Part shown: positions 5,334-30,206 of the stretch, one piece after another
How positions within the stretch are numbered: the first letter of the stretch is position 1
Layout of the letters: each line of letters opens with the position of its first letter
DNA from: a bacterium
GTDB lineage: Bacteria > SAR324 > XYD2-FULL-50-16
DNA: 64,000 nt
Assembly: GCA_018829445.1 (NCBI GenBank)
Contig: JAHJTV010000074.1
Span: forward strand, 1-64,000
Direction of reading: 5' to 3'
The notes under the pieces: generated by a model
The model's input: the letters and a program-made list of their open reading frames with translations, nothing else
The model's database searches: none
Told to the model about the DNA's origin: nothing
Position numbers and translations under genes: made by a program

Positions 5334-5348
5334 TTCGTAGTCTTAATT

Positions 5349-5421
5349 GTAGGATGGGCTACTTGTTGCCCATCAAATAAAATGTATTAAAAAAAGATGG
5401 GCAACAAGTAGCCCATCCTAC
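5349..5421. repeat. REP pair upstream of the RAYT gene
   Basis: Inverted copies at 5349-5374 and 5396-5421 with a 21-base A-rich spacer, immediately upstream of the RAYT start. With 4787-4812 they bracket the transposase gene. Confidence 0.9.
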
Positions 5422-5451
5422 ATTTGTCCAGTCGTTATTGTTCATTAACCG

Positions 5452-9974: not shown

Positions 9975-10067
9975 CACTTTCCTCAATTGTTACGATTAGT
10001 GCTAATATTTCGATGGAATTGGTTCAATGTTCATCCTGGAAAAACCTTTTTGCTTCCAACATGAGTG

Positions 10068-10831
10068 TTATTTATATTCCATATCTTCAATTGTAATAAT
10101 CAGTGGTACATGGTCACTATGTTTAAGCCAAGGATCTATATCTAATACTTCAATCTTAGAATCCTTTATGAGCTTCTTAGATCCAAAAAAGTAGTCAATG
10201 TGATAGCATTTTCCGGGTTCCTATACATATAAAGTGTTTTACGAGTCTCCGATCCTTGAGCTTCATTATAATAGTGATGGTACAAGCTATAGATATTCAT
10301 CTCTTCAAGCTCAGCTACTACATCACTATGGTTCCACCATCGATCTGTTTCATCCCAGAAAACGTTGCTATTGAGGTCTCCACAAAGAATCGTGTCATTT
10401 CCTGATAAATCCGGTTTATGGATTTGAAGGTACTTCCACAATTGCCCGATATATCCAAAGTTCGGTGAATTGTTTCTTTTTGTCCAAATACCCAACAGTG
10501 TATATCGATTGTCAATCTTACACGGTAAAAAGGTTTCAAGATCACTCGTTTTCCATGTTACTGGCATACCATTTCTACCAAAATTAGAGAGTTTAAATTC
10601 TCCATTAAGGGATAATGCCTGGAGGGAGTGACCATTTCGAACAAATATCCCAATCCCTTTATTTTTGCTTTGACCTGTCCAGAGATAATCTCCAGCCCAT
10701 TTTTGGTATTCCTTGGTTGATTGAGCAGGGTTCTCACACTCCTGGATAACATGAACATCTGCTTCAAAATCTTCAAGGTATTGTGTCTTTTTTCTTAAAG
10801 CTCCGTTACAGTTCCATGAGATTATTTTCAT
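10068..10831 (-). pseudogene. Endonuclease/exonuclease/phosphatase (EEP) family protein, frameshifted near the 3' end
   Basis: The N-terminus MKIISWNCNG, the VIQECE metal-ligand motif and LCGDLNSN (near residue 155) identify an EEP-fold phosphodiesterase related to exonuclease III and DNase I. The ORF-track version stops at 10166, but the last essential block is present in another frame: CYHIDYFFGS, then WLKHSDHVPL with the catalytic SDH, ending at 10068. A single missing base near 10205 (AACCCGG) accounts for this. Reconstituted length is about 253 aa. It lies 47 bases after zorD and 93 before hsdM, in the same direction, so it may be an accessory nuclease of either system. As written, the product lacks its catalytic histidine. 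A sequencing error is possible. Confidence 0.82.
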
Positions 10832-10878
10832 TTTTATAAAAGTTTTTAATCGCTAATCATCATTGTGCTAATCTTGCT

Positions 10879-14064: not shown

Positions 14065-15245
14065 TTTTGTCTGATCGCTAAGTTAATAAGCCTGTTCGCA
14101 CGTTCTAGCCATACATTTCCTTGATGTGGTATCCATCCTTCTCCATTTTCGGTTCCGACTCCTGCATTTACTACCATATTTCTAAATTTTAATTCATTGT
14201 CGAGATTTCGAACTCTACTCGGTATTTTAACTGACCCTTTCTTATACACGTATATCGCACCAATCTTTCTAAACTCAACGAATTCAAAGCCTCCGATCTC
14301 AATACAAAAAGCCTCTACACTTCCCCGAACCTTAATTTCTTTGATATTATCGATAACTTTGAGATATCGCTTCCAGAATTTAACTCGTTCATTATTTCTG
14401 TCTTCCAGGAAAAAGGCTTCAATAGTAGCCCCCAATGCCCACTCTTTATATGCAGTCTTAGCTTCATCATTCAGCCTTAGCCATTTTGGGCTATTGGGTG
14501 GTTGGAGTTTCCTTTTCGCAAGCTCAAATAAAGGATGATCCTCATCTTGATCGATTTTTAATGCCTTTGCCTCATTGCAATATAAAGGTAAGGCATGATT
14601 CCAAATTGACGTATGAATACTCTGCCACTGGTCATTATTTAATAGTGCAATAATTGCCTCAATTGAAATCTTTTCAAGATAATTAGATAAGATCTCGTTA
14701 TTCTCACAAATAGCTTTGATAACATCTTCACGTAGTTGTCTGACGTTAGTTATTCCGAGAGCCTTGGGAATATCAGTTAACAGAATACTATTTTGTAGTA
14801 TCCAAATGACCATATTTTTTAAGATATTTCCCTGGAAAAACATTGATCGGTTTTTTGACCAGATTTCCCAGCCTTCAATGTTAAGCACTTCCTTGTGAAT
14901 GTTGTCGTATAGATAATTACATGCCTTTTCTTCTTTATAATTATCAAAATAAAAGTCGAGTATATTCTTTGTGATATCAACAGAAGGTCTAAAATTAAGG
15001 CAATCAAAGAGTGTATCCGATAATTCTAATTGTTTAATTTTAGCAATGTATCTTGAAAGTAACTCAAGATCAGAAATACTAGGAATGTCTTCTTCTAATT
15101 GTGATATTTGATATGATTTTAATTTTTCCAAGACACGCTCAAGATCTAGTCTTACTGGTTCACCACTTTGAATCCCTATTCTTTTTTCAAGTTCTTTAAC
15201 TAAAGATTTTAACCTCACCGGTGTAAAATCAATTGTAATGCTCAT
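14061..15245 (-). CDS. zorC: Zorya type I protein ZorC
   Basis: ZorC is the DNA-binding partner, found only in type I Zorya, that works with ZorD below the ZorAB motor. This protein is mostly helical and ends with an EH-signature-like segment (GFEFVEFRKIGAIYVYKKG, then WIPHQGNVWLERA). The track start at 15254 is a TTG; the in-frame ATG at 15245 (MSITIDFTP) is preceded by AAGGGA and is my choice, giving 394 aa, somewhat shorter than the E. coli homologue as I remember it. Four-base overlap with zorD and tight spacing to zorB imply one mRNA. The identity rests on position as much as on sequence. Confidence 0.85.
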   Translation of the reverse strand: MSITIDFTPVRLKSLVKELEKRIGIQSGEPVRLDLERVLEKLKSYQISQLEEDIPSISDLELLSRYIAKIKQLELSDTLFDCLNFRPSVDITKNILDFYFDNYKEEKACNYLYDNIHKEVLNIEGWEIWSKNRSMFFQGNILKNMVIWILQNSILLTDIPKALGITNVRQLREDVIKAICENNEILSNYLEKISIEAIIALLNNDQWQSIHTSIWNHALPLYCNEAKALKIDQDEDHPLFELAKRKLQPPNSPKWLRLNDEAKTAYKEWALGATIEAFFLEDRNNERVKFWKRYLKVIDNIKEIKVRGSVEAFCIEIGGFEFVEFRKIGAIYVYKKGSVKIPSRVRNLDNELKFRNMVVNAGVGTENGEGWIPHQGNVWLERANRLINLAIRQK

Positions 15246-15258
15246 GACCTTCAATCCC

Positions 15259-15939
15259 TTATTGTTTAGTTAAATTTTGCATCATTTTCTCATACTTTAA
15301 TGTGAATCGAACCAGTACCCTTCTGTCTTTAACTCTGTCTGGATTATATTTACCACTTTCATTTTTTTGAGTGTATCTTGCATCGGCAAAGCTTCTTCCC
15401 AGTGTCACAAGATGAGTCTTTAGTTTCTCATAATAATGAGGATTATTATCAATCATATAATGCCCAACAGAAAAAGCCCGCTTTTCACTTAAATCCAAGT
15501 CTTTCAAATACTGCTTTGGCTTATCAATTTCTAATGAAGCGTGCCCCTCGATCAGGATTCGTTCCAGCATTCCTTTTGTTATTGAATCATCAAATAAGAC
15601 TTCCAGATAAACTGGTATTACTTCGGTCAAAATAGATTTTGCCCTTTTTTTGAGTACAGCACTTTCTTGATCAAACCAAGCGACATCCTTCATCTGAGAA
15701 AACGTTATGTCTCCATTTTGTTCAACAGTGACAGACATAATGTTTTTTTCTTTGAATTTCTTCCGTAAAGCTTCAGCAATTTTGACACGTAACTCAACAT
15801 TTTCATTAATATCCTGTAACTTTTGTTTATATTGGAGATTTGAGATAACAATAATGGCGAGTAATACAAATAATAAACCTGCCATTAAGTCACTATAAGA
15901 TATCCAAAAGTTTGTTGTATGTTGTTTCTTTACTGCCAT
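15259..15939 (-). CDS. zorB: Zorya protein ZorB (MotB/OmpA-like stator)
   Basis: The 226-aa inner-membrane protein anchors to peptidoglycan and forms the proton-conducting motor with ZorA. A single N-terminal transmembrane helix (about 13-34, ISYSDLMAGLLFVLLAIIVIS) carries the conserved proton-binding aspartate D17, as in MotB. A linker helix and a C-terminal OmpA domain follow (ILIEGHAS, LSEKRAFSV, VKDRRVLVRF). Length matches ZorB. It sits 17 bases after zorA. Confidence 0.93.
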   Translation of the reverse strand: MAVKKQHTTNFWISYSDLMAGLLFVLLAIIVISNLQYKQKLQDINENVELRVKIAEALRKKFKEKNIMSVTVEQNGDITFSQMKDVAWFDQESAVLKKRAKSILTEVIPVYLEVLFDDSITKGMLERILIEGHASLEIDKPKQYLKDLDLSEKRAFSVGHYMIDNNPHYYEKLKTHLVTLGRSFADARYTQKNESGKYNPDRVKDRRVLVRFTLKYEKMMQNLTKQ

Positions 15940-15956
15940 TTGAGATCTCTTATTTG

Positions 15957-17609
15957 TTAATTTCTTGTGAACACTCTTTTGAACAATCCCTTCTTGGTTG
16001 TTTTTTCGATCTCTTCAGCAATTTTAAATATGTGTTCAGAAAATAGTTTTGATAGCTCTTCCGTATTATTTAAATGGATGTTTTCTATTCCTTGAACCGT
16101 ATTCTTAATTTCAACGGGCAACTTGTTTAATTCTGACTCAATTTCTTTATGACTATTAGTAAATCTGGTTAATACATTTGATAATTCTGATTGAAAACCT
16201 GCAAAGTGATTCGTAAAAACATTAGAAAAATCATTTAATACAACTTGAGTATTACTGGCTCCATCTTGCAAAAGGGTGTTGAAGTTTCCGATTTGATTTG
16301 TAAATTTGCCAACATCATCATTTAGCCTGTCCAACCAAGTGGCAACATAGGTACCAGCTCTTGATAACTCGTCATCAAATTTTGACATCGTTATTTGTAG
16401 TCCATTGACGATGCCATTTTCAAATGATGTATATTGCTCCCTTAGCTCCTCAATCAGATTTGTAAGACGCTCTTTCTCTTCAATCCAGCTATTACTCATC
16501 AAATTTATGCTGTCTTTTACAACACTTGTAAATTCTTCCTGCAATTCGACAATACTCAATAAGGCATCAGGCAGCTTTTCCAGCCTCTGAGAGGAAAGTT
16601 CGAAGTCTTCAGCAGCCTTTGTCATGGCTGGTAAGATTTTTTCGAGTCTTGTCATTAACTCAGTTGTATTATTTACACTTTTATCAAACCTCTCCAGGAT
16701 GTCGGTTTGAATTGTTGAACTCTTTTCCATTTTCTCTAGATTTTCAGAGAATTTATTCAAAGTCCCATCAATACTACTCATAACTTGCTCTACAATAGTA
16801 TAACTTGAGCTACCAGCTTTATCGATAGATGACTCCAAAACCTTCGAAACTGATTCAAGTGTCTGGGATATTGAACTAGACACAGCAGTTCCAATATCAT
16901 CAGCCATTGTCTCAAGTGCATCTTTGACTTCTTGCAGCTCACCTTTAATATCAATCAACACTGACTCAGATGTAACCCTATCCAATCGGTTGTTGATGGC
17001 CATCTGAAAATCAAATAATTGCTTTCTAAACTTGCCAAGAGTTCGTCTTTCGTTGTAAAGGAAAGCGATACTCATCCCGATACCAAGGATAGATGTAAGA
17101 AAAGCTGTTCCTGCGCCTTGTAATAGTCTATCTATTGATAATTTATGAACAGATTCTTCTACTTGGCCGGACAATGGGACTAAAACGAACAGTATACCAA
17201 TAAAAGTCCCTGAAATTCCAAGAGCTGAGAAAATTCCAGGATAGTGTTCAAGAAATGCTTCATCCACATCAAGAGCTTTGCACACAGACTCGTCGGATAT
17301 AATCACTTCACAGTTTTGAGTATTATTTTGCTTGTTTTTCTGATCGTTGTTCACCAGTTCTCTAAACTCAACCAACAGAGGTTCTATTTCCGGGAGCGAT
17401 TTCCCCAATTCCTCAAGATCAAGTTTTTCTGAACTTCTGATTTGTTTCGTTTCAGCTTCCAGCCTTCGTCCAAATGCTTTTAATCTCCTTAATTGAGGCA
17501 GTCCTTTGATAAAGAATATGTATAGGATAATGCCAGCAATAATGAGCAAAACAATGTCTGGAGGAATTTTAGCAACTAATTGTGCTAATGTTTCAGTTAT
17601 AAAATTCAT
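15957..17609 (-). CDS. zorA: Zorya protein ZorA (MotA/ExbB-like motor with long tail)
   Basis: Membrane motor subunit: ZorA forms a pentamer around two ZorB chains and carries a long cytoplasmic tail thought to transmit the infection signal to ZorC and ZorD. Transmembrane segments are at about 18-37, 125-150 (HYPGIFSALGISGTFIGILF) and 165-190 (LLQGAGTAFLTSILGIGMS), with the MotA/ExbB-type conserved glycines. Residues 230-540 are almost continuous heptad-like helix, the tail. At 550 aa it is shorter than the studied E. coli ZorA (about 700 aa from memory), which suggests a shorter tail. SD AGGA sits ahead of the ATG. First structural gene after the WYL regulator. Confidence 0.94.
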   Translation of the reverse strand: MNFITETLAQLVAKIPPDIVLLIIAGIILYIFFIKGLPQLRRLKAFGRRLEAETKQIRSSEKLDLEELGKSLPEIEPLLVEFRELVNNDQKNKQNNTQNCEVIISDESVCKALDVDEAFLEHYPGIFSALGISGTFIGILFVLVPLSGQVEESVHKLSIDRLLQGAGTAFLTSILGIGMSIAFLYNERRTLGKFRKQLFDFQMAINNRLDRVTSESVLIDIKGELQEVKDALETMADDIGTAVSSSISQTLESVSKVLESSIDKAGSSSYTIVEQVMSSIDGTLNKFSENLEKMEKSSTIQTDILERFDKSVNNTTELMTRLEKILPAMTKAAEDFELSSQRLEKLPDALLSIVELQEEFTSVVKDSINLMSNSWIEEKERLTNLIEELREQYTSFENGIVNGLQITMSKFDDELSRAGTYVATWLDRLNDDVGKFTNQIGNFNTLLQDGASNTQVVLNDFSNVFTNHFAGFQSELSNVLTRFTNSHKEIESELNKLPVEIKNTVQGIENIHLNNTEELSKLFSEHIFKIAEEIEKTTKKGLFKRVFTRN

Positions 17610-17657: not shown

Positions 17658-18548
17658 TTATTTTGTGGAATAGTTATCGATCCCTGGTGCAAGTATTATT
17701 TCATCAATACCATCAATTTTATTTCTATTTTCCAACCAAAGTTGAAAATGTTTTCCATCTAGCCGGTGATCCTCGGTACAATCGACATTCCAATGCCTAA
17801 GTACATACCCTGCAATAGCTTTTCTTACTTTAATTTTTTTTGTACCATCAATCATCCTGTAATCGAGTTCTATCGCTTTTTTCTCTTCAATATTGGAAGG
17901 GTGTGGGGCTAACTCCAGAGTGATCTCCTGATTCCATTTATCATCGTTTATGGATGAGTGTTCCTGTATAACGTCTTCCGGTAACACTTTTGCTGACAAT
18001 ACTCTTGTGAATACAAAGTCCCGGAACTCTTCGGATTTTTGATCAAAAGCTCTGACATGCCATCGTAAGCCACTATTGATGATTGCAAATGGAGCAATTA
18101 TTCTTTCTGTTTCACCACTTGATAAGGAATGATACGTGATAGCACAGTATTTTTTCAGGTAAACTGCTCTTGATATCTGACTTAATATCTCACTCTCAGG
18201 ATGATTCAATTCAATTGCTGTCGCCGATGGAATAATTGGAGTAGGTATTTGTTCCAATGTATCACCAAACCCGGTTGAAAGTGCTTTTAAGACCTGAGTG
18301 ACGGTGAAATCAAATAAAGGTTTAAATTTCTGTGTCATCCGATGAGTTCTTGTCTTGAAATCATATTTCAGATTGTTTGGTGCAATATCAATGTAAGCAG
18401 CCAGATCTTTCGATGCAGCAGCATCACTGATTCTAAACCTATTAACAATATCAATACGACCAATTGTCCCCAGATAGTTTGCACAAAAATCTATGAAGGA
18501 TAGTCGTTCACTTTGCTTTTGGCTTTTATCTTTCAACTTTTTTTTCAT
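17658..18548 (-). CDS. WYL-domain transcriptional regulator (CapW/BrxR-like)
   Basis: The 296-aa protein has a winged-helix N-terminus (about 15-80, with the HTH RFRISDAAASKDLAAYI), a WYL domain (about 125-200, ITYHSLSSGETERIIAPF and the CapW-type RWHVRAFDQ) and a WCX-like C-terminal domain. CapW/BrxR proteins are homodimeric repressors at the head of CBASS, BREX and other defence operons that release transcription on infection. The position 48 bases ahead of zorA fits that role. I prefer the ATG at 18548 (MKKKLKDK), preceded by GGAG at good spacing, over the track start at 18563. It probably represses its own operon from sites in the 18.59-18.66 kb region. Confidence 0.92.
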   Translation of the reverse strand: MKKKLKDKSQKQSERLSFIDFCANYLGTIGRIDIVNRFRISDAAASKDLAAYIDIAPNNLKYDFKTRTHRMTQKFKPLFDFTVTQVLKALSTGFGDTLEQIPTPIIPSATAIELNHPESEILSQISRAVYLKKYCAITYHSLSSGETERIIAPFAIINSGLRWHVRAFDQKSEEFRDFVFTRVLSAKVLPEDVIQEHSSINDDKWNQEITLELAPHPSNIEEKKAIELDYRMIDGTKKIKVRKAIAGYVLRHWNVDCTEDHRLDGKHFQLWLENRNKIDGIDEIILAPGIDNYSTK

Positions 18549-18595
18549 AATTACTCCATGCATTGTTACTTCTGGTTATACTCTTTCGGGCTAAG

Positions 18596-19109: not shown

Positions 19110-19811
19110 TTAGGTAATCATGATCTCATCAAAAAATGAAAAATCTTTAGATAATGAGGCTTTTGATTGCCTAACTCTTGTTATAGCTGCCTTTAAAGTA
19201 AATTGGTTCCAACCAGGAACATTCTTGTATCTTTTTATCATCCGAATTTTCTCCTCAAGATTCTGCGTATCAAATAAATCCCAAAGATAGTCAACCTCGG
19301 CTTTCACAATTTCAAAGTTCAATTCTCTGTGGTACCGATTTAACCGATCCAGTGTAACAAGAGCGTATTTCCAGTTGTTGAACGGATGAATCAAGTAAAG
19401 TTTCTTTTCTTTGAAGGATTTTGCAGCAGAAGGGTGAATAAATGATTTCCATCGACCACAATTATATTCAACACCAATAGCTGAAAGCGCAATATCAAAA
19501 CGAGACAAGCAGGATTCCATAGGCAAGCCATCATAATTGTATGGAAACTCCAAAATATTACGTTCAAATCTCAATGCTATGAAAAATGGAGGTTTGTCAT
19601 CAATAATAACGGCTCCTCTATCAAGCAGACTTTGAATTAATAGGTGTTTCGTCTTTTTATCTGGAACCCATAAATCAAGGTCTTTTACTGGAAGTCCAGA
19701 TAACAAAGTCTTAAAATAACCACCTGCCAAGTATATTTGGATGTGAATGAGGTTACCAATTATCTCAGTTAAAACTGGATTTGCAGCTTCCAATATTCTT
19801 TCATGATTCAT
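19110..19811 (-). CDS. Nucleotidyltransferase-superfamily protein
   Basis: The 233-aa protein has the Pol-beta-type nucleotidyltransferase core near its N-terminus: a GG motif (LAGGYFKTLL, about residue 30) followed by a metal-binding D-x-D pair (VKDLDLWVP). The rest is helical. Such proteins transfer a nucleoside monophosphate onto a small molecule, RNA or protein; the substrate here is unknown. It is the last gene of the seven-gene operon, 31 bases after the kinase gene, suggesting a role in activating or tagging the product. Confidence 0.72.
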   Translation of the reverse strand: MNHERILEAANPVLTEIIGNLIHIQIYLAGGYFKTLLSGLPVKDLDLWVPDKKTKHLLIQSLLDRGAVIIDDKPPFFIALRFERNILEFPYNYDGLPMESCLSRFDIALSAIGVEYNCGRWKSFIHPSAAKSFKEKKLYLIHPFNNWKYALVTLDRLNRYHRELNFEIVKAEVDYLWDLFDTQNLEEKIRMIKRYKNVPGWNQFTLKAAITRVRQSKASLSKDFSFFDEIMIT

Positions 19812-19842
19812 TGTTTAATACCGACTTAATGTGTTCGACTGT

Positions 19843-20307
19843 TTATTGAGCCTTTCCTCTCCCATCAAGAATGAAGGCTTCTTCAATATTTCCATATGTT
19901 TCTATCAAATCAGTTTCAACATTGCTGAGAACCTGCTCCATTGGAACTCCAAAATCTGGATAAGGAATATTCCAGATGCGAGTTTTGATTCGATTCCAGC
20001 ACTCCTTCTGAGGCAACTGAACTATATAGGTGATTATCCTCAATTTAGACTGCCTAAGGGCAAGGTTAACGTAGTGTCTAAATGGCCCCACACCTGTATA
20101 CTCTATAATTAGAGGTTCTTCTGCTTGGCAATGCAATAGGAATTTTTCCCATGCTGACATCTCACCTGAAGGACTTCCATCACTACGATCGAGTCGAGAT
20201 TGATCAATTGAATAATAAGGAAGATCTAAGGTTAGTTTTAGTTCTTCTGCAATTGTGGTCTTTCCGGCTCCAATGTTTCCAACCAGAAGAATTTTTGAAT
20301 GTGTCAT
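19843..20307 (-). CDS. P-loop small-molecule/nucleotide kinase-like protein
   Basis: A 154-aa AAA/adenylate-kinase-type P-loop protein with Walker A GNIGAGKTT at residues 10-18 and a LIIEYTGVG strand in the Walker B region. Small single-domain kinases of this shape phosphorylate nucleosides, sugars or similar metabolites; the substrate cannot be read from the sequence. It lies 12 bases after the histidine phosphatase gene and 31 before the nucleotidyltransferase gene, in the same operon. Confidence 0.75.
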   Translation of the reverse strand: MTHSKILLVGNIGAGKTTIAEELKLTLDLPYYSIDQSRLDRSDGSPSGEMSAWEKFLLHCQAEEPLIIEYTGVGPFRHYVNLALRQSKLRIITYIVQLPQKECWNRIKTRIWNIPYPDFGVPMEQVLSNVETDLIETYGNIEEAFILDGRGKAQ

Positions 20308-20319
20308 AATTGGTTTGAG

Positions 20320-20994
20320 TTAATTATTGACTGCTTTCATATCCAGTGCATTCAGTAAAAACGATTTTTCTCTCCAAGCGAGGTAATGGCTATTCTCAGT
20401 TTCCCAAAAAACAACTGACTCCAGAGTTTTTGGCCAGAAGTCGAGGTTCATGTCTGTTTGGCTAAAAATCCATGCTAAAAGAAATCCAATAATAGAATCA
20501 TGTGAAACAAGGATCTTGACCTCTGGAGCTTTTGGTATAGGGAATACACTGCTGAACAATCTATTCACACCTTCTTCAATAGGGAACATTCCATTCACGG
20601 GTCTTCTGGCAATGTAGTTGTTATTCAGTTTTCGATGTCCCATTTCCAAATAAGTAGATCCAGCAAATTTGGAATCAGAAATGAACGCTCCGGGATTACC
20701 CAAGCGAGTATCATACCGCAACTCAATCGTTGAATTGGCTTGCCCTTCCAGTAGACACTGGGAGGTTTGCACACATCTGGATACTGGACTTGTTAGAACC
20801 GATGAAATAGGTAGTAAAATATTTCGCCCCAATTCCATAGCCGATTTTTTACCTTCTGGAGTCAATAAAATCTCATTGCCAAATTCCCCTTTAGGAATCT
20901 CAAATCGATGTGAGTGTCGAAGCAGAATCGTCATCCCTACTGATGGGGGAACAAGAGACATATTTGACAGATTCCTTCTTATGATTTCTTCCAT
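20320..20994 (-). CDS. Histidine phosphatase (phosphoglycerate-mutase-like) family protein
   Basis: The 224-aa protein has the family's catalytic RH motif as ILLRHSHR near residue 25 (RHS in place of the usual RHG), LTSPVSRCVQT near 75 and the second catalytic histidine in VSHDSIIGFLL near 175. It probably removes a phosphate from a cassette intermediate. Four bases separate it from the upstream methyltransferase gene. It could also have mutase activity, but phosphatase is more usual for divergent members in biosynthetic clusters. Confidence 0.82.
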   Translation of the reverse strand: MEEIIRRNLSNMSLVPPSVGMTILLRHSHRFEIPKGEFGNEILLTPEGKKSAMELGRNILLPISSVLTSPVSRCVQTSQCLLEGQANSTIELRYDTRLGNPGAFISDSKFAGSTYLEMGHRKLNNNYIARRPVNGMFPIEEGVNRLFSSVFPIPKAPEVKILVSHDSIIGFLLAWIFSQTDMNLDFWPKTLESVVFWETENSHYLAWREKSFLLNALDMKAVNN

Positions 20995-20998
20995 TCAT

Positions 20999-22642
20999 TT
21001 AATCCTTCTCTGCGATGATAATCTGTGAAATAGACTCCATCGGTATTGTTTTTTGATAGGTAAAGCCGGATTTCTTCAACAATCTTTGGTACTCACCAAG
21101 ATTTCTTTCTGTACCTTGGGTTGTTAAAAACATGTGAAGATTTAACAACCCTCCATAAGGTTTATCGAGGTCTTTCAACATTTCGACAATGTAGAGTGAG
21201 CCTCCAGCTTCCAATGCGTCATAAGCATTTTTCAAAATGATAAGGGAATTTTCATCATCCCAATCATGAAGCACTCTTGCTAACACGATAGCATCTCCCT
21301 GCTCTGGCCATGGCTTGAGAAGATTAAAACTTTGTGCCTCCAAATCACAAACCAATGATTTTATCACCTGTTCTGATTCCAACAGAATACACTTCAAGTG
21401 GGGAAAAGCTTTAAGAACTTGCATTAATAGAAATCCCTGTCCACCACCAGCATCAAGCACTTTTGAGTGGTTATTTCCAGGGAAGTACTCTGAGAAAGCT
21501 TTATAATCTTTAGTTGCATAGGCATTCATGGCCTTCTGATAGGTGTTCAACTTTTCAGGATTCTGCTTTAGTATCGAGAACCAATCAGATTTGTTCTCTT
21601 GAAGAAACTTTGACGACCCATCTCTTAACGATTCAGTAATTTTCATCCAAGGTGAGAGGTGAATCGAATCTGTGAAAGTTAGTGTCGCATTACATAGATT
21701 AGGGGATGTCTTCAATGAAAGAATTTGACTCTTTGGAGTCAATCTGTATTGGTTATCTGATTTTAAAAGATATCCCATGTCCCATAATGCTCTGAGAAGA
21801 ACAGGAGGATATTGATTCTCTGATATTTTCTCTCCATTGAATACTCCAAATTCAACGGCTGCTTTTAGGGTAAAACTCTTCCAATAGCCAACCAAATCGG
21901 CTGAAACACTTGAGAAATGATCCTTCGCTTTTTTCGAAACACATTGAGTATTACCCGATTCGTTAATCACAAGTATTTCCCCTTCATATGTTTCCACTCT
22001 GGATTGCCCATTATAAAAAGGCTCAGCTTTTGCGAACCTTTCGGAATAGATTTCTTCTCCCTTTTTATTAATATGAAACCATCCTTTGGAATCCTGAGCC
22101 AAGGCATATCCCTTATGGTATACTCCTAAATCCTTAAACCAGATATCATGCAGCATCTCACCTGTGTCTTTAATATGGGAATGTAGACCTGTTTTATTTT
22201 GAACAACAGCACATTGATCTCTAAAATCACCTGCATATCCCCAAGTTTCTTTCGTAAGAGGTTTCCCATCAACCCTAATATGAACATAGTCCCCAGTGCT
22301 CAATCGAACCGGTGCATAACCGAATTGAAAGTTACCACACCATGAGTGGTTCTCTGAATATGGCCTTGAACCATCGAGTTTAATGTGAAATGCGTTTCCG
22401 ATTTTGTCTTCTACAGTGGCCAGTCCTTCATAAAATCCAAAAGTTCTTGAATATCGCTCCGAATACAATTCCTTTCCTTCCAAGTCGATATGAAAAGCTC
22501 CAGAAGAACCTTCAACAGGAGCCACTCCCGGATCATGGTACTTTAGTACATGGATAAATCGGTTTTGATATAGTGGTTGGCTGTTATGAAGATGATGTGA
22601 CTCGTCTTCTGACACTTTGGTCTCTTTCCAATCTATTTTCAT
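20999..22642 (-). CDS. WG-repeat protein fused to a SAM-dependent O-methyltransferase
   Basis: The 547-aa fusion starts with about five WG/KWG-type beta repeats (about 35-235; recurring FHI..G, YSERY, G.A.V), usually a binding or scaffold module. A winged-helix dimerisation part follows (about 250-330), then a class I methyltransferase of the hydroxyindole/caffeate O-methyltransferase type (LDAGGGQGFLL near 395, ARVLHDWDDE near 455). Family members methylate hydroxyls on small molecules; here the repeats may hold a carrier or glycan. The ATG overlaps the radical SAM stop in ATGA. I know of no named homologue with this architecture and function. Confidence 0.82.
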   Translation of the reverse strand: MKIDWKETKVSEDESHHLHNSQPLYQNRFIHVLKYHDPGVAPVEGSSGAFHIDLEGKELYSERYSRTFGFYEGLATVEDKIGNAFHIKLDGSRPYSENHSWCGNFQFGYAPVRLSTGDYVHIRVDGKPLTKETWGYAGDFRDQCAVVQNKTGLHSHIKDTGEMLHDIWFKDLGVYHKGYALAQDSKGWFHINKKGEEIYSERFAKAEPFYNGQSRVETYEGEILVINESGNTQCVSKKAKDHFSSVSADLVGYWKSFTLKAAVEFGVFNGEKISENQYPPVLLRALWDMGYLLKSDNQYRLTPKSQILSLKTSPNLCNATLTFTDSIHLSPWMKITESLRDGSSKFLQENKSDWFSILKQNPEKLNTYQKAMNAYATKDYKAFSEYFPGNNHSKVLDAGGGQGFLLMQVLKAFPHLKCILLESEQVIKSLVCDLEAQSFNLLKPWPEQGDAIVLARVLHDWDDENSLIILKNAYDALEAGGSLYIVEMLKDLDKPYGGLLNLHMFLTTQGTERNLGEYQRLLKKSGFTYQKTIPMESISQIIIAEKD

Positions 22643-23640
22643 TTAGGTACCTTCATATTGCAGGTTTGACATAACTTCTGTTTTTGATAGTCAGAGACTA
22701 ATGTCCGGTATTGTTTGGACTCCCACATGTTTTGAATGCTTTTCTGCTGAAGGTTTCCAAAATCTCCGAGTTGTCTTCTCAAATTGTCAGGAGCACAACA
22801 AGGGCTATATTTTCCTTCATGATTGATCCATAATTCTTTCCCCAAAAATGGGCATCTGCTATTCTCCAACAACTCTTCAGGGTGATCAGGGTTTAGATAA
22901 TGGAAGTTGGTAAGCGTAATTCTTGAACCATTTTTTAATCTTTTCTGTTCAGCTATTCGATTCATTTGACCAACAACTTCGTTCCATTGTCTTATGGATT
23001 CACTTGAACGACGCATTGAAAGTGTTTTTATTTCCTCGAAATGAGTCCAAAGGTGATGCCCCTTTATTCGATTAATCCCTAATTCAATCGCTTTTTTTAA
23101 TACAGGAACAAGCTCTTCCATATTCATCTGCAAGAAAGTCAATTGTAAGGTAATAGTACATCGAGTCTGATCTTCTGATGCCGAACAATTTCTTGCACTA
23201 ACGAATTGAGTAATGTTTGACCAAGTTTTCTCAGCCTTTGATCCTTGCATGATGGCTTCTTGAATTTGTGTGGATATCCCATTAACAGAAATCTTGATAT
23301 CACTACATACTGGAAGTAATTTCTCAGCCCAAAGGACGGGGCCATGTTTTGGAAATGTCCCATTCGTAGTTAAGTTAAGACGGAAATCCGACTTTTTGCA
23401 GCTTTCAAGTAAAAACTCAAAATGTTTGAAAAGTAGCGGTTCTCCCATGGTTGAAGGAATGATCTCTTTAACTCCAAGTACTTTTGCTTGTTCAAGAATC
23501 GTTTGGAGCATCTCTAGTGACATTCGTCTGGGTTTCCCTTGGTATTTTAGGGCATATTTTGAATGCTGCTCGCACATCAGGCAATGTAGATTACAATCAT
23601 CTGGATTGGTATCCAGAGTAATTCTCCAAGGAAATTCCAT
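22639..23640 (-). CDS. Radical SAM/SPASM enzyme
   Basis: A 333-aa radical SAM protein with CNLHCLMC (C16, C20, C23) binding the [4Fe-4S] cluster, a TMGEPLLF segment in the SAM-binding region, and a C-terminal SPASM-like block with several cysteines (SRCPFLGKELW, SPCCAPD, LCQTCNM). SPASM proteins include peptide-modifying maturases and sugar dehydrogenases or epimerases such as BtrN. No precursor peptide gene is evident nearby, so a sugar or other small-molecule substrate is more likely. It lies one base after the glycosyltransferase stop and overlaps the methyltransferase start. Confidence 0.9.
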   Translation of the reverse strand: MEFPWRITLDTNPDDCNLHCLMCEQHSKYALKYQGKPRRMSLEMLQTILEQAKVLGVKEIIPSTMGEPLLFKHFEFLLESCKKSDFRLNLTTNGTFPKHGPVLWAEKLLPVCSDIKISVNGISTQIQEAIMQGSKAEKTWSNITQFVSARNCSASEDQTRCTITLQLTFLQMNMEELVPVLKKAIELGINRIKGHHLWTHFEEIKTLSMRRSSESIRQWNEVVGQMNRIAEQKRLKNGSRITLTNFHYLNPDHPEELLENSRCPFLGKELWINHEGKYSPCCAPDNLRRQLGDFGNLQQKSIQNMWESKQYRTLVSDYQKQKLCQTCNMKVPK

Positions 23641-23641
23641 G

Positions 23642-24949
23642 TTAATTCTCCAAACTCGGATTAAGCTTTATCATTTCAAAAATCAAGTTTGATACATGCT
23701 TTCGAACATCTGGGATTTGCCCATCTTCACTGAAAAGATATCCTTGTCTGCCCAGTTTATCTGCCAGTTTCCTATTCCCGGACAAGTAACTCATTTGTAT
23801 GGATAGATCCTCACAATCTCTGTGTCGGAATAATAATCCATTTTTCATATGATGGACATACTCTCCCATTCCTCCTGCATTTGATGTAATCACTGGTTTT
23901 CGTGCTGCTTGTGCTTCATGAATTACCAGAGGGGAATTCTCCACCCAAATTGATGGAACAACGATAGCATCAATATGTTTAAATACTTCGTCTTGGATTT
24001 GGGAGTTGTCGTATTCCTGCCTGAACTCAATTTTTTCCTGTCTTTCGTCTGGCAGTGCTAGTACTAATTCTTTAAGAAACGGAGTGACATCTCCTTGAGT
24101 TCTACCCCAGATGATTAGTCGCTCTTCATCTTTTAGCTTTCCGAATGCCTCTATCAATAAATGAATACCTTTAGCTGGAACATGCCTACCAATGTAACCG
24201 AAGGTGAAGGGTCGATCTTTTAATGTGTTTTCTTCACTCCCAAAGCGAGAGAGTTCAAATCCATAATCCAAATACCTGATTTTTTCATTTGGAATGTGTG
24301 CTGCTCTGATAAATCGATCTCTAAGATAATTTGCGGGTGCTACAAACAGATCAACCGCATCCATTACTTCCTGTACGTGCTGCATTCTTTGATTAATCCA
24401 AGATGACCAGTAGTTTTTGTCCACATCAACGGATTCAAGTCCAGAAAAGTATCTATTATAACATTTCATTGTACATTTCATATCTTCTTGGCCATCGCAA
24501 TCTTGCCAGCTTTCCAATTCACCGATATTGAATTGCATGAATTGACCTCTGGGGCAAATCAGCCAGTAATCATGCAATGTAAACAATACAGGAACATTCT
24601 TTTTTTTTGCTTCAAATACAAGTGATGTTGATAAATGGTTTAAATGTCCTATGTGAACAACATGTGGCTTATATTTATCTAAAATGTTACCAAATGCGAT
24701 ATCCACCTCTCTATGACTGTACCTGTCTTTAGATCTGGTAATATTGATAAGATTAAGTTTTATTTTTGGTTCTTTGGAATCAACTTCTTCCCGTTGGGAA
24801 AATTCAGGCTCAAAGGGGTTCTCATACCTTGAAAAAACCTGTACTTCATGCCCTTGTCTGACATATTCATGACAAATGGTTTGGCTATATACTTCAGAAC
24901 CAGCATTATAACGCATTGGATAACCATGAATGACTTTTAAGATTCTCAT
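23642..24949 (-). CDS. Glycosyltransferase family 4 protein
   Basis: A 435-aa GT-B glycosyltransferase of the GT4 group. The N-terminal acceptor domain opens MRILKVIHGYPMRYNAGSE; the C-terminal nucleotide-sugar domain has FTFGYIGRHVPAKG near 250 and the donor-binding EX7E region (ENSPLVIHEAQAARKPVI) near 345. It probably transfers a sugar made or modified by its operon partners. The start overlaps the epimerase stop by four bases. A cysteine-rich stretch about 145-165 (CDGQEDMKCTMKC) is common in one GT4 subgroup. Confidence 0.92.
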   Translation of the reverse strand: MRILKVIHGYPMRYNAGSEVYSQTICHEYVRQGHEVQVFSRYENPFEPEFSQREEVDSKEPKIKLNLINITRSKDRYSHREVDIAFGNILDKYKPHVVHIGHLNHLSTSLVFEAKKKNVPVLFTLHDYWLICPRGQFMQFNIGELESWQDCDGQEDMKCTMKCYNRYFSGLESVDVDKNYWSSWINQRMQHVQEVMDAVDLFVAPANYLRDRFIRAAHIPNEKIRYLDYGFELSRFGSEENTLKDRPFTFGYIGRHVPAKGIHLLIEAFGKLKDEERLIIWGRTQGDVTPFLKELVLALPDERQEKIEFRQEYDNSQIQDEVFKHIDAIVVPSIWVENSPLVIHEAQAARKPVITSNAGGMGEYVHHMKNGLLFRHRDCEDLSIQMSYLSGNRKLADKLGRQGYLFSEDGQIPDVRKHVSNLIFEMIKLNPSLEN

Positions 24950-25833
24950 AAAACTCCTTGTTTACATTGTTCTATGTAATTGTTTAACCCTGTTGCAAAT
25001 GGGATTTTCGCTTCCCAGTTAAGTACTTGCTTTGCTTGTCTGGGATCTCCTATGAAATTATCAACTTCATAATTTTTATGTAATCCGTAGTGGATTGGGA
25101 TATCCGATTTAGATAACTTTCTGCATTGATCGGCTACTTCCGAGAGTCTCACTCCCTCACCTGAAGTAAGATTCAATATTTGATTCGTAATCTTGGATGA
25201 TTTTGCCATTTTGTCGATAACCCCAATAAAACCGTTACAAATGTCATGAATATGTACAAAATCAAAACACCTCTCTGGCCCAAAAACAGTTATCGGTTTG
25301 TTCTCAAGTGCACACCTGACCAAAGAAGGAATTAATCGTTCAGAACGATCTGTGAGAGATCCATATACATTTGTAAGACGTAATATGGTATAACTGCCTT
25401 TACAGTGATTTCGGATGGTTTCCTCAGCCATTGATTTTGACAAGCCATAGAGATTTTGAGGATTTGATGGAGAATGCTCACCCAATTTAATAACCGAGCT
25501 TTTGCCATACACCTCTCTGCTACTCGTGAAGATCAACCATTGGTTTTTATTCAGGCTGTCAATAATGTTTTGAGTTCCTTGAACGTTTACTTCAATCGTT
25601 TTTTCCGAATCATTTTGAGCATCTAAGACTCTACTAATTGCAGCCAGATGAATGACACCATCACATTTGAACATAGCTTTTTTGAGTCTCTCTTGATCTC
25701 TAATATCCCCGAAGAATGGGTGGTCATATGGATATCGGTTATCAAATCCTTGAAAAAGAATACCATTGCTTTCTAGATTTTTTGAAAGGGAACTCCCAAT
25801 AGCCCCAAGGTTACCTGTTATAAGTACTTTCAT
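24946..25833 (-). CDS. NAD-dependent epimerase/dehydratase (extended SDR)
   Basis: The 295-aa extended short-chain dehydrogenase, GalE/RmlB-like, acts on nucleotide sugars. It has a Rossmann GNLGAIGSS at residues 7-15, FTSSREVYG near 105 and the catalytic YGLSK (YxxxK) near 130. It is the first gene of the seven-gene operon and starts 13 bases after the small toxin-like ORF, which runs in the same direction. It probably makes or interconverts the sugar donor used by the glycosyltransferase. Confidence 0.9.
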   Translation of the reverse strand: MKVLITGNLGAIGSSLSKNLESNGILFQGFDNRYPYDHPFFGDIRDQERLKKAMFKCDGVIHLAAISRVLDAQNDSEKTIEVNVQGTQNIIDSLNKNQWLIFTSSREVYGKSSVIKLGEHSPSNPQNLYGLSKSMAEETIRNHCKGSYTILRLTNVYGSLTDRSERLIPSLVRCALENKPITVFGPERCFDFVHIHDICNGFIGVIDKMAKSSKITNQILNLTSGEGVRLSEVADQCRKLSKSDIPIHYGLHKNYEVDNFIGDPRQAKQVLNWEAKIPFATGLNNYIEQCKQGVL

Positions 25834-25845: not shown

Positions 25846-26103
25846 TTAGGTCAATTTACATTTCGTATAAAAGAGATTGTATTTTTCGTGGGTTAACAAG
25901 TAAGCTTTTTGAACAATCTTTTTGTGCCAGTGACACACAAGCCTGTATTGTTGGCCAACAGGAATTGATAGAATTCGGGGATTCTTCTTGAGTCGTTTGC
26001 CATTTTGTTTGCAATAATCACCATCAATTGACAGTTCTTTCAAAATCCGAACTGATTTATCAACGATGTAGCTTGGCAAACCTTTCTTGTCGTTGAGGAA
26101 CAT
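25846..26103 (-). CDS. RelE/ParE-superfamily toxin-like small protein
   Basis: An 85-aa basic protein with the compact alpha-beta layout of RelE/ParE/HigB toxins (KILKELSIDGDYCKQNGKRL, then IPVGQQYRLVCHWH, then AYLLTHEKYN). No antitoxin gene is visible upstream or downstream, so if it is a toxin it is solitary or worn. It precedes the epimerase by 13 bases and might simply be co-transcribed. A plasmid-type ParE is the alternative reading. Family match is moderate. Confidence 0.55.
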   Translation of the reverse strand: MFLNDKKGLPSYIVDKSVRILKELSIDGDYCKQNGKRLKKNPRILSIPVGQQYRLVCHWHKKIVQKAYLLTHEKYNLFYTKCKLT

Positions 26104-27682: not shown

Positions 27683-28288
27683 CTATCTTTGGCTTTTGAG
27701 TCTCTTTACCTCAATAAACCGGATTAATGTTCCTCTGCTACAATTGAGCTTCCGGGTAATAGCAGATACAGCAACACCATAGTCCAACTCAGTCAGAATG
27801 AAATCCTCTTTACCGTCCAAAATCGACCCTCCTTTAGGTCGACCAAGGATCTTCCCTTTGGATCTAGCTGCTTTTAGTCCCTCCTTTGTTCTTTCACTGA
27901 TCAAGTCCCGTTCAATTTCACCGTAAAGTGAAAACATTGTTGTGATGGTTTTGGTTTGGATGTTCATCTGTCCATTGATATTGATGTCCTCCTTGATAGT
28001 GGTGAGAAAAACGTTTTTCTCAATCAATTGATCCACGATAATGGCAATTTGACCAACACTCCGGGCAAGACGAGATAACTCGGATACAATTAATACATCA
28101 TTAGGCTTCAATAAATCCAGTAACTCATCAATCCGTCTCCTCTTGGTTGATTTCCGGCTGCTGACTTTTATTTCCTGCCACTTATCAACAGCCAACTTGT
28201 TCTTTTGGCAATAATCCAGAATTGCCAGTTTCTGAGTATCATAATCTTGTTTCTCCGTGCTTACTCGAATATATCCAATCACAGCCAT
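27683..28288 (-). CDS. Serine recombinase (resolvase/invertase family)
   Basis: A 201-aa small serine recombinase: the catalytic serine lies in IGYIRVSTEKQDYD (about residue 10) and arginines in SELSRLARS (about 72). The long E helix (GEIERDLISERTKEGLKAARSKGKILGRPKGG) leads to a C-terminal HTH (VSAITRKLNCSRGTLIRFI). Such enzymes resolve cointegrates or invert DNA segments. No transposase is adjacent. It is probably a remnant of a mobile element in the island. The gene looks intact. Confidence 0.93.
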   Translation of the reverse strand: MAVIGYIRVSTEKQDYDTQKLAILDYCQKNKLAVDKWQEIKVSSRKSTKRRRIDELLDLLKPNDVLIVSELSRLARSVGQIAIIVDQLIEKNVFLTTIKEDININGQMNIQTKTITTMFSLYGEIERDLISERTKEGLKAARSKGKILGRPKGGSILDGKEDFILTELDYGVAVSAITRKLNCSRGTLIRFIEVKRLKSQR

Positions 28289-28540: not shown

Positions 28541-28831
28541 ATGGAAAGCAACAATTACGTGGATAGATCGTTGTGAAATGATCTGAAGAAACTGCTGAGT
28601 GAGGTTGTAGCTGATATTAACACCGCACCGAAAGTCTACAAAATATCTGAAGTTTCTGAGCTGCTAAAATGTAATGAACGAGCAGTAAAGCACCATCTGT
28701 ATGAGGCTTGTGACCTCAGATACTTCAAAATAGGAAGGGAAGTCCGAATTAGGGAAGAAGACTTGCAAGAGCTTATTCGCAACAAAACGGCATTCTGCAA
28801 AACTATCTATGAGCAGGAGGTGTTGCCATGA
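28541..28831 (+). pseudogene. Excisionase-like HTH gene with an in-frame stop
   Basis: An open frame missed by the ORF track: ATG at 28541 (MESNNYVDRSL), then a TGA at codon 12 (28574-28576), then a continuous frame to the stop at 28829. The post-stop part contains a MerR/excisionase-type helix-turn-helix (VYKISEVSELLKCNERAVKH, then YFKIGREVRIREEDLQELI). It overlaps the next ORF in ATGA, and the tyrosine integrase follows, the usual xis-int layout. No good alternative start is visible after the TGA, so I treat it as inactivated. Confidence 0.7.
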
Positions 28832-29079
28832 TCAAAATAGAAAATATTGGACTGTATGATCCAACGTGCAAACTGTACCCAAAGGAGCAACGGGGTAAGG
28901 TGAAATACTATGTCACGTATTACCTTCCAAATGGTAAACGTATGCAAAGGCCAGTTCATTCGGATTATGCTAAGGCAGAGAAAATGGTCAATGAAAAGAA
29001 AATCCAATTGATCCAAGGATATTTCGACGTCAAAGACCAAAAAAAAGCTCGTTGGTTTTTATTCAAATATGCAGAATAA
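28828..29079 (+). CDS. Small protein, possibly a separated integrase arm-binding domain
   Basis: The 83-aa ORF shows the three-stranded beta plus helix pattern of integrase N-terminal (arm-type) DNA-binding domains (KYYVTYYLPNGKRMQRPVHSDYAKAEKM). It overlaps the excisionase-like gene by 4 bases and the integrase by 11. Either it is the N-terminal piece of a split integrase or a small DNA-binding protein of the element. Confidence 0.55.
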   Translation: MIKIENIGLYDPTCKLYPKEQRGKVKYYVTYYLPNGKRMQRPVHSDYAKAEKMVNEKKIQLIQGYFDVKDQKKARWFLFKYAE

Positions 29080-30206
29080 GGACAAGTTATCAATTGATGA
29101 TGGATTGCACGTGTATTTCGAAAACACTAAATCCAGAAAAACAGCCAACACGTACTATAGTGACTTAAGTATAATTAATCAAAGCTTTGAATTTTTCAAG
29201 GATCGAGGCTATGAGTGCTTTGAGGAAATAAAACCCTTGGATATATTAAATTTAATTAGTCAATTGGATGAAGCAGGCAAAGCTGAACCCACCATCAAAA
29301 ATGCTGTAACAGCCGTCAGGAAAGTCTATAATTTCCTAATTGATGAAGCTGATCTACTGTCAGGAATGAATCCGGTTCCGAGGAAGGTAAAATTGCCGAA
29401 GAAAAATGGTTTAGTCAGAGATAGACTAGCCTCTGATGAAGAAATCAATAAATTGTTGAAAGCAATTCAAAAGGATGAATTGTCAAAGCGTCAAAGTAAT
29501 CTTCCAACTTCATCAATCTCGCCTTTAGGAAATATATTACAATTCCTGATTTTCACAGGAGCGAGACGTTCGGAGGTTCTTCATGCTGAGTGGTCTGATT
29601 TCGATTTGATTGAAGGTATTTGGAAAATCAGAATCAAACCAACTGAGTGGTCTGATTTCGATTTGATTGAAGGTATTTGGAAAATCAGAATCAAACCAAA
29701 ATGCCCAACGATAAATGGACTTGGTTGGTATCCAAAATGGAAAAAGCCCAGAGATGTGATCCTCTTTCCTGAAGCACTTAACCTACTCCGATCAATTGAA
29801 AAAGTAGAAACAATCGGAAAGGTAGGTATCAGGGATCAGAATCACAAAATAGTAGGTCACAAAATTTATCCAGCACAGTTTGTCTTCCCAAAGAAAGAGT
29901 TTCTAACACAGGATGATGGAAAAGTGTTAACTCGATATTCAAGAGTGGATTCGATTGAGACTGGTTGGAGAAGCCTACTAAAACGTGCTGGAGTTGAAGA
30001 TCTTCAAATCAAAGATCTCAGGACATAAGTTAAGATCGTTCTATGGTTTTAGCCCAAAAGAAGCAGGGGCGTACATCGGTAATAGTGATGTAATTAATGA
30101 TCTTCATTACAACCCGATTTCATTTGATATGATGAAGCAGAAGATGAAGAAATTTTCACTAAATAAATTGATTGGAATTGGGGAGGAAGTCGGAGGTCAA
30201 GAGTAA
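29069..30206 (+). pseudogene. Tyrosine recombinase (phage/island integrase), frameshifted
   Basis: SAM-like core-binding domain (about 10-100) and catalytic domain of a tyrosine integrase. Arg I is in FTGARRSEVLHAEW. The first frame ends DLRT-stop at 30028, but shifting one base after DLR restores the expected H (DLRHKLRSFYGF), then IGNSDVINDLHYNP with the probable tyrosine, to 30206. A single extra A at 30023 therefore separates the catalytic HxxR region from its tail. An in-frame perfect 57-bp tandem duplication (EWSDFDLIEGIWKIRIKP twice) also disturbs the fold just after Arg I. The enzyme is very probably dead, fixing the island in place. Confidence 0.88.
29586..29699 (+). repeat. Perfect 57-bp tandem duplication inside the integrase gene
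   Basis: 29586-29642 and 29643-29699 are identical (CTGAGTGGTCTGATTTCGAT...). The duplication is in frame, adding 19 codons directly after the first catalytic arginine region. Perfect identity implies a recent event. Confidence 0.95.

Follow-up and report, generated by a model that had tools for sequence, protein, structure and literature searches.

A seven-gene glycosyltransferase, radical SAM and beta-propeller cassette related to the Undecim Cluster of phage WO, and a proposal for its product

A compact operon in a bacterium of the SAR324 lineage raises the question of what its combination of enzymes makes. The window analyzed here is a stretch of 64,000 nucleotides (contig JAHJTV010000074.1 of assembly GCA_018829445.1, positions 1 to 64,000). 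A first-pass annotation had described a seven-gene cassette at 19110-25833 with four junctions that overlap or lie within five bases, and had placed it between a defence island and a dead integrase. All of this was borne out: the seven ORFs are intact and tightly packed on the minus strand from 25833 to 19110, with junction spacings, from epimerase to nucleotidyltransferase, of -4, +1, -4, +4, +12, and +31 bases. One flank is a Zorya I and type I restriction-modification (RM) island that also holds a WYL gene, and the other is a tyrosine integrase, frameshifted and internally duplicated, that adjoins a tRNA-Gly; no att site in the form of a duplicate of the tRNA-Gly 3' end was found within the window. 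Along the cassette the genes are as follows (UC numbers are those of the Undecim Cluster of phage WO, described below).

24946-25833, minus strand: NAD-dependent sugar-nucleotide epimerase/dehydratase-type SDR, UC2 homologue (295 aa; Pfam Epimerase, 2.7e-40)
23642-24949, minus strand: GT4-family glycosyltransferase, matching the N-terminal half of UC3 (435 aa; Glycos_transf_1, 1e-25)
22639-23640, minus strand: radical SAM/SPASM-type enzyme, matching the C-terminal half of UC3 (333 aa; Radical_SAM, 2.6e-14; SPASM, 2e-11)
20999-22642, minus strand: fusion of a WG beta-propeller and an O-methyltransferase, UC4 homologue (547 aa; Methyltransf_2, 4e-25)
20320-20994, minus strand: histidine phosphatase, branch 1 (224 aa; His_Phos_1, 8.8e-6)
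19843-20307, minus strand: small P-loop kinase, AAA_18/AAA_33 type (154 aa; AAA_18, 1.8e-8)
19110-19811, minus strand: Pol-beta-type nucleotidyltransferase resembling the head and neck of CCA-adding enzymes (233 aa; D44/D46/D106 and structure model)

The SDR carries an invariant SSREVYG-type motif (Tyr129/Lys133, alignment of 22 members) and in PDB profile searches matches UDP-glucose epimerases and UDP-glucuronate decarboxylase, and the GT4 retains its EX7E motif (E337/E345). In the radical SAM enzyme the CX3CX2C motif is intact at C16/C20/C23 and further cysteines lie at C263, C281/C282, C324, and C327; these cysteines are invariant among 30 sequences, and the C-terminal spacing suggests a single auxiliary Fe-S cluster in a BtrN-like twitch, as in BtrN and other twitch/SPASM enzymes. 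Similarity to BtrN is low, however, with a profile match in the C-terminal part only (E = 8e-4), and the PDB profile search returned no close solved relative of the family. Unlike BtrN and the other twitch/SPASM enzymes, this family is often fused to a GT4, and because of that fusion in relatives the enzyme probably acts on a sugar.

Of the three downstream enzymes, the phosphatase keeps its catalytic residues (RHxxR and H-D) and the kinase its Walker A motif (GNIGAGKT). The nucleotidyltransferase, which has no Pfam or NCBIfam match, is identified by its conserved D44/D46/D106 and a confident structure model (pLDDT 89.7) that matches CCA/A-adding enzymes (4wby, E = 1.6e-9). It has the catalytic head fold and three aspartates in common with tRNA CCA/A-adding enzymes, LnuA, and ANT(2''), but at 233 aa it is too short for the full body and tail of a CCA enzyme and, unlike any of these, its type is linked or fused to a phosphatase. 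Neither a search of phages with the window protein nor a search of viral contigs with the alignment found a relative of it. Single-protein PDB sequence searches gave nothing useful for the nucleotidyltransferase, phosphatase, or radical SAM enzyme; profiles performed better.

A scan of the genome collection yielded 168 relatives of the radical SAM enzyme, and the neighbourhoods of 80 of these loci, picked by the radical SAM gene alone, were compared; with two Arsenophonus plasmids they form a set of 82. A WG domain was present in 80 of 80, usually in the next gene, across ten bacterial phyla and Heimdallarchaeota (Asgard), about a dozen phyla in all, and in 78 of 82 loci it begins no more than about 60 bases from the radical SAM stop codon. 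Co-occurrence of the radical SAM and WG-methyltransferase families, a check suggested at the outset, was thus complete for the propeller and partial for the methyltransferase (62 of 82). A GT4 accompanies 81 of the 82, a histidine phosphatase 48 (within 8 kb of the radical SAM gene), and an SDR 40. Fusions are frequent: GT4 and radical SAM form one ORF in 47 loci, SDR, GT4, and radical SAM a triple in 3, WG and methyltransferase a single protein in 59, and phosphatase and nucleotidyltransferase in 8. Pairwise distances are correlated between GT4 and radical SAM (0.85), WG and radical SAM (0.79), methyltransferase and WG (0.91), and phosphatase and methyltransferase (0.88), whereas those of the SDR track the core only loosely (r = 0.42-0.52).

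The grouping of these genes is more than chance: dozens of unrelated genomes carry the core in the same order, and purifying selection acts on it in seven relative pairs (dN/dS 0.04-0.31 for core genes; the window copy, with no close relative, lies outside those pairs). The earlier reading of a single operon dedicated to one product was in our judgment right, as was its view that the enzyme mix is unusual and that a modified sugar is the likely chemistry.

The first-pass label for the fourth gene, a WG-repeat methyltransferase, was correct as to both domains, but the propeller is no mere appendage. Residues 1 to about 240 form the WG part and about 245-547 the O-methyltransferase. Although the Pfam WG_beta_rep match is weak (5e-4, under the gathering cut-off), the fold model is confident (AF2 pLDDT 95.9), and its Foldseek matches are propellers. 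Within its roughly 230 residues lie six repeats with one histidine each (17/51/86/121/156/190), and these six positions are 99-100% identical among 82 sequences, while the other conserved residues vary from repeat to repeat (GFY, CGNFQ, GDF, LDxxHK, EPFYN). The methyltransferase has an intact SAM motif (DAGGGQG) in the window copy and resembles the natural-product enzymes MmcR, CalO6, and DnrK. The propeller rather than methylation is the constant part, and the methyltransferase the dispensable one.

In a search of 383 related genomes, the WG domain was matched over its full length in the window's own genome only, the others being partial matches to generic WG proteins, and the cassette was absent from the other searched genomes of its class. 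Carriers elsewhere include named isolates (Azospira oryzae, Ramlibacter, Myxococcus, and Sorangium), and one relative sits inside a prophage of the Bacteroidota type, flanked by endolysin and integrase. A histidine-phosphatase match in Acinetobacter was rejected as a relative; its surrounding ORFs include no other cassette gene.

The accessory genes vary. Kinase homologues occur in loci L031, L036, L074, and L088, the window kinase is 39% identical to the Heimdallarchaeota copy, and in L031 the WG domain is itself fused to a kinase. Nucleotidyltransferase relatives number 12 among the 82 loci, and in 8 loci other than the window's the enzyme is fused to the histidine phosphatase. The earlier suggestion that the product is finally tagged with a nucleotide is not borne out: this CCA-enzyme-like gene is an accessory one. 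A tyrosine-phosphatase fold stands in place of the histidine phosphatase in L031, L036, L074, and the prophage locus L103; since these folds are unrelated, dephosphorylation itself seems to be conserved. Many operons consist of the GT4-radical SAM, WG-methyltransferase, and phosphatase genes alone, so these steps look sufficient, and the loose correlation of the SDR and the sporadic kinase and nucleotidyltransferase suggest that these three may serve other steps. Tailoring genes typical of specialised metabolism (PhyH, GntG-type aldolases, SHMT-like, carbamoyltransferase, class II aldolase, ABC exporter) are found at other loci, and a UDP-glucose dehydrogenase gene is close to the cassette at six loci and is also present in the WO cluster. 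In the window, no exporter, regulator, or gene specific to a product goes with the cassette.

The only described relative that we found for the family is the Undecim Cluster, and in the literature searched no paper was found joining WG repeat, radical SAM, and glycosyltransferase. Gillespie 2012 (pREIS2) is reportedly cited for the same genes. The Undecim link surfaced through the phage collection only. In this phage WO cluster (UC1-UC11, WD0611-WD0621; PMC9203015), the UC2-UC4 homologues are colinear with the first four window genes, at identities of 37% (UC2, SDR), 47% (UC3, GT4; over 425 aa, E = 7e-141), 48% (UC3, radical SAM), and 31% (UC4, WG/methyltransferase); UC3 is a fused GT4-radical SAM protein, whereas the window has two separate genes. 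Both are single copy, mobile, and island- or phage-borne. Wolbachia expresses the Undecim Cluster at a high level (PMC9203015), and one obligate strain carries it in duplicate (PMC12801941). UC1, UC5 PhyH, the UC6 ABC transporter, the UC7/UC8 aldolases, and UC9-UC11 have no counterpart among the window ORFs beside the cassette, where no WO genes, WO module, or WO-like island were seen either; in place of the Undecim-specific set (PhyH, ABC exporter, two aldolases, transporters, and UDP-glucose dehydrogenase) the window has the phosphatase, kinase, and nucleotidyltransferase. The statement that no described pathway matches must accordingly be qualified, as a described relative exists, but that relative is uncharacterised, and no homologous cluster was found in a characterised polysaccharide or antibiotic pathway.

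Louse-fly Arsenophonus plasmids (CP132902, CP132904, and CP132908; PMC10654098) carry the epimerase-GT4-radical SAM-WG series in the same order (36/51/50/36% identity; 50-52% for the radical SAM across copies), with core genes under purifying selection. They belong with the Undecim Cluster in having PhyH, SHMT-like, and aldolase genes and a degenerate methyltransferase motif, and they adjoin panBCE. Their GT4 and radical SAM are absent from the PLSDB gene tables, and a search of PMC10654098 by terms did not surface the cassette. The family is defined here by a GT4, a radical SAM enzyme with one predicted auxiliary cluster, and a six-repeat WG propeller, all of which the window cassette carries, and it has two arms. 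The Undecim arm, in symbionts and alphaproteobacteria, has PhyH, aldolases, and an exporter in addition, and the SAM motif is lost from its methyltransferase domain; the window-type arm keeps that motif and usually has a histidine phosphatase, to which the window adds the kinase and the CCA-enzyme-like nucleotidyltransferase.

The reading we prefer, with confidence evenly balanced, is a biosynthetic cassette that was acquired horizontally and makes a small metabolite of the glycoside type. We infer all substrates, the order in which the reactions run, what the propeller does, and the small-molecule nature of the product. The SDR would turn a nucleotide sugar, perhaps derived from UDP-glucuronate, into a donor, which the GT4 would couple to a small acceptor, probably a phosphorylated one, as in known pairs of GT4 and phosphatase. 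The radical SAM enzyme could then oxidise or rearrange the glycoside, and the WG propeller may bind or act on the intermediate, its near-invariant histidines lining one site. Methylation of a hydroxyl by the O-methyltransferase and release of the product by the histidine phosphatase would follow, while the kinase and nucleotidyltransferase may form an accessory phosphoryl- and nucleotidyl-transfer module for activation or self-protection. The product would most likely be a dephosphorylated, O-methylated glycoside modified by radical chemistry.

The best-surviving alternative, though an unlikely one, is that the cassette places a modified, methylated sugar on a cell-surface polysaccharide or LPS. 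SDR, GT4, and UDP-glucose dehydrogenase genes are common in polysaccharide loci, and WD0611-WD0613 and WD0620 have been put in exopolysaccharide/LPS biosynthesis by annotation (PMC9203015). However, no flippase, polymerase, ligase, or polysaccharide cluster is among the top families listed for the 80 neighbourhoods, nor did we find a flippase, polymerase, ligase, or several glycosyltransferases among the window ORFs. Operons usually have one glycosyltransferase, minimal operons stand alone, and a small-molecule-type O-methyltransferase, phosphatase, and kinase/nucleotidyltransferase module would be unneeded for glycan assembly. Wolbachia and Rickettsia, moreover, are both carriers despite having very different envelope glycans.

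A shade less probable is a nucleoside- or nucleotide-type antibiotic, made by polyoxin/tunicamycin logic, in which a nucleotide serves as the acceptor, the radical SAM enzyme forms a C-C bond or ring on it, and the phosphatase frees the nucleoside. PhyH dioxygenases and SHMT-like or GntG-type PLP aldolases, both found in the Undecim arm, are the enzyme types behind glycyl-nucleosides; the kinase and nucleotidyltransferase handle nucleotides, and in L075 the phosphatase is fused to an adenosine-deaminase domain. The polyoxin pair PolH and PolJ (PMC5365060) is a published precedent for a radical SAM step (PolH) followed by dephosphorylation (PolJ) of a phosphorylated sugar intermediate, a likeness by description that speaks for this reading and for the preferred one alike. 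The window cassette, however, encodes nothing specific to nucleobases or nucleosides, the phosphorylated acceptors of GT4 enzymes include ones that are not nucleotides, and we know of no GT4 or WG propeller alongside PolH and PolJ.

A defensive compound, directed against phages or used in inter-bacterial conflict, seems less likely again. It would suit the adjoining Zorya I, WYL, and type I RM genes, the relatives in phage WO and a Bacteroidota-type prophage, and the sporadic, horizontally mobile distribution. Yet the cassette has no effector or sensor, and among the matches listed for 50 carrier genomes no type I RM specificity gene is close to it; the defence setting, offered earlier as a clue to function, appears to be a property of the window's island rather than of the cassette. 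PADLOC gave strong matches for 97 flanking genes, but in well-known control genomes the DpdF model matched 10 of 14 and the viperin model 4 of 14, so that neither is specific; the controls covered these two models, and the BrxA, PsyrT, and PDC matches lie outside them. A defence-island role is therefore not favoured. It is highly improbable that the propeller is itself the substrate of the GT4 and radical SAM enzyme, with the other enzymes acting on the modified protein: it is obligatory, adjoins the radical SAM gene, and repeats conserved H, Y, and W sites, and many SPASM enzymes target peptides or proteins, but most loci join it to an intact methyltransferase in one protein, L031 joins it to a kinase, its conserved residues differ between repeats as in an asymmetric active site, and neither a secretion signal nor a gene for processing was noticed.

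Returning to the glycoside pathway, we tentatively suggest, as a real possibility rather than the probable outcome, that it represents a new class of specialised metabolite, built by the GT4-radical SAM pair and a new beta-propeller enzyme with six conserved histidines, spread over about a dozen phyla, Asgard archaea among them, with one arm captured by phage WO and symbiont elements that dropped methylation and added oxidation and aldol chemistry. Two readings are corrected in any case: the propeller rather than methylation is the constant element, and the methyltransferase domain of the Undecim arm lacks a SAM-binding motif. Wolbachia is hard to manipulate. The Undecim core belongs to a widespread, self-contained pathway carried by named isolates, which opens its function to experiment, and if the proposed metabolite class is real, the Undecim product would be a chemical cousin of a compound from free-living, culturable bacteria.

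The cassette, at 25833-19110 on the minus strand, comprises seven head-to-tail ORFs whose successive junctions measure -4, +1, -4, +4, +12 and +31 bases. Pfam called an SDR, a GT4 glycosyltransferase, a radical SAM/SPASM protein, a methyltransferase with weak WG repeats (WG-MT), a histidine phosphatase and a P-loop kinase; the Pfam search gave no family match for the last gene, and no NCBIfam model reached its cut-off for any of the seven. In the last gene, a nucleotidyltransferase (NTase), D44, D46 and D106 are kept across 12 aligned sequences, and its predicted model (pLDDT 89.7) matches CCA/A-adding nucleotidyltransferases in structure. Immediately upstream of the operon lies a ParE-like toxin-domain gene (25846-26103) for which no antitoxin partner was identified. 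The surroundings include:

10879-17609 and 17658-18563, Zorya type I system (ZorA, ZorB, weak ZorC match, ZorD) and WYL-domain regulator, immediately downstream of the cassette
27683-28288, resolvase, near the broken integrase
28828-30028, tyrosine integrase, broken (frameshift, exact 57-bp tandem duplication at 29586-29699, early stop), adjoining tRNA-Gly and tRNA-Gln

Third-position GC in the seven genes (0.31-0.36) is similar to that of the adjoining Zorya genes (0.30-0.32). Among other genes sampled, it is higher (0.39-0.53) in the type I RM methyltransferase, in MFS and glutamine synthetase and in amt, whereas metK has 0.35. Because the cassette was found neither in two congeners nor in any other searched genome of the same class, it probably belongs to an island gained by horizontal transfer and anchored close to tRNA-Gly (30331), with the broken integrase. 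Elsewhere in the window, a type I RM locus contains, besides a RhuM-family gene (3628-4581), a Y1/RAYT-type transposase (4809-5333) surrounded by REP-like repeats (core ATGGGCAACAAGTAGCCCATCCTAC; 61-106, 3383-3477, 4536-4833 and 5347-6181), and another radical SAM/SPASM protein, which carries a SEC-C motif at its C-terminus, is encoded apart from the cassette (47753-48991).

Scanning a genome collection with two peptide patterns from a radical SAM alignment yielded 168 relatives, and the best 80 loci were fetched. These 80 came from Pseudomonadota, Chloroflexota, Myxococcota, Planctomycetota, Cyanobacteriota, Thermodesulfobacteriota, Chlamydiota, Nitrospinota, Verrucomicrobiota, Electryoneota and Heimdallarchaeota. 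The first-pass annotation had called for a neighbourhood search for co-occurring radical SAM and WG-MT families, and the association held: in loci selected by the radical SAM gene alone, the WG domain was present in 80 of 80 and GT4 in nearly all. GT4-radical SAM formed a single ORF in 47 loci, SDR-GT4-radical SAM a triple fusion in 3, WG-MT a single ORF in 59 and phosphatase-NTase in 8, although, as ORFs in the relatives were called mechanically, GC-rich genomes may contain some overextended starts and "fusions". E-values obtained in searches restricted to the loci apply only locally. Distances among the GT4, radical SAM, WG and methyltransferase domains correlate (0.79-0.91), exactly one such WG domain occurs per genome in 50/50 carriers, and dN/dS was 0.04-0.31 for core genes in seven pairs of relatives and 0.13-0.67 for the phosphatase where computable. 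A third arm (L052, L029, L038, L051, L054) combines a fused or triple-fusion core with a class II aldolase, a carbamoyltransferase and two extra radical SAM genes, and downstream of the core in locus L075 a histidine phosphatase and an adenosine-deaminase domain share one ORF (12684-14468).

A defence role was hinted at by the adjoining Zorya/RM genes and by strong PADLOC matches among genes flanking the relatives. However, in a control by position and control genomes covering two models, used without thresholds, the DpdF model (PDLC02861) also matched 10 of 14 well-known genomes and the viperin model (PDLC02903, pVip) 4 of 14. Among the S-gene matches of type I RM listed for 50 genomes, a list that stops short of the weakest, none lay near a cassette. 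We thus retain defence as an alternative without favoring it, and matches to these models without thresholds should not by themselves be used to call defence genes.

A search of annotated phages with the window radical SAM protein led to Wolbachia phage WO, where the matched region encodes, in order, a GlmU-like protein, an epimerase, a GT4/radical SAM fusion, a "hypothetical" that is the WG-MT protein, one further hypothetical matching PhyH genes and another matching ABC exporters, two L-allo-threonine aldolases, a transporter, a UDP-glucose dehydrogenase and a permease. This region is the Undecim Cluster, eleven genes whose functions are only predicted (PMC9203015), later reported as duplicated in an obligate strain (PMC12801941). 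Its identity to the window is 37% for the SDR, 47% for GT4, 48% for radical SAM and 31% for WG-MT. Five to eight of its genes recur in L082, L084, L091, L080, L059, L067 and the Arsenophonus louse-fly plasmids L009 and L011, which carry epimerase-GT4-radical SAM-WG in the window's order; the GT4 and radical SAM genes of these plasmids (L009 8387-10730; L011 7828-10196), though large and intact, are absent from the PLSDB gene table. The plasmid cassette adjoins panBCE.

The WG domain, modeled as nearly all beta (pLDDT 95.9), has propellers (BamB, designed propellers) as its top Foldseek matches (TM 0.5-0.56); its profile matched no PDB sequence, and ordinary WG-repeat proteins of other genomes match it only partially. 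Six repeat histidines (17, 51, 86, 121, 156, 190) and H176, K177, G103, N104, Q106, Y136, G138, D139, E207, F209, Y210 and N211 are 99-100% identical across 82 sequences, a pattern that, judged from the alignment, would resemble a binding or active site.

The SDR may make a sugar donor from a nucleotide sugar, perhaps UDP-glucuronate-derived, because a UDP-glucose dehydrogenase lies close by in six loci and in the WO cluster, and because the window SDR carries SSREVYG, which is closer to decarboxylase/dehydratase motifs than to that of GalE. The phosphatase would dephosphorylate a pathway intermediate to release the product, since it is conserved, is in places replaced by a different fold, and has a precedent in PolH/PolJ (PMC5365060). 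One replacement is in L103, a Bacteroidota-type prophage (8731-13348; GT4-radical SAM-tyrosine phosphatase-MT-WG, flanked by endolysin and integrase). Outside the Undecim arm the histidine phosphatase is usually present; kinase carriers (the window, L031, L036, L074, L088) have a Pol-beta-type NTase nearby, of at least two different types (that of L088 recognized by eye from GSx10DxD), and a tyrosine-phosphatase-fold enzyme accompanies kinase and NTase in three of these four relatives.

In a quick tree of GT4, radical SAM and WG, with support from SH-aLRT only, sequences whose methyltransferase motif is degenerate (WO, Arsenophonus, Rickettsiales and relatives) fall on one side of a supported branch, as a single change; the window groups with Desulfobacterales outside them. 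All other compared methyltransferases, the window's included, retain a recognizable glycine-rich motif and nearly always HDW, whereas in the Undecim arm DxGGG and RVLHDW are replaced by forms such as GxGRSAK and HYW/HYF. Because the glycine-rich SAM motif is lost in UC4 and its arm (L108 13077-14669; L009, L011, L037, L059, L067, L080, L082, L084, L090 and L091), the published "methylation" label for UC4 is doubtful; with both motifs degenerate, this domain has probably ceased to methylate in the Undecim arm, which retains the propeller.
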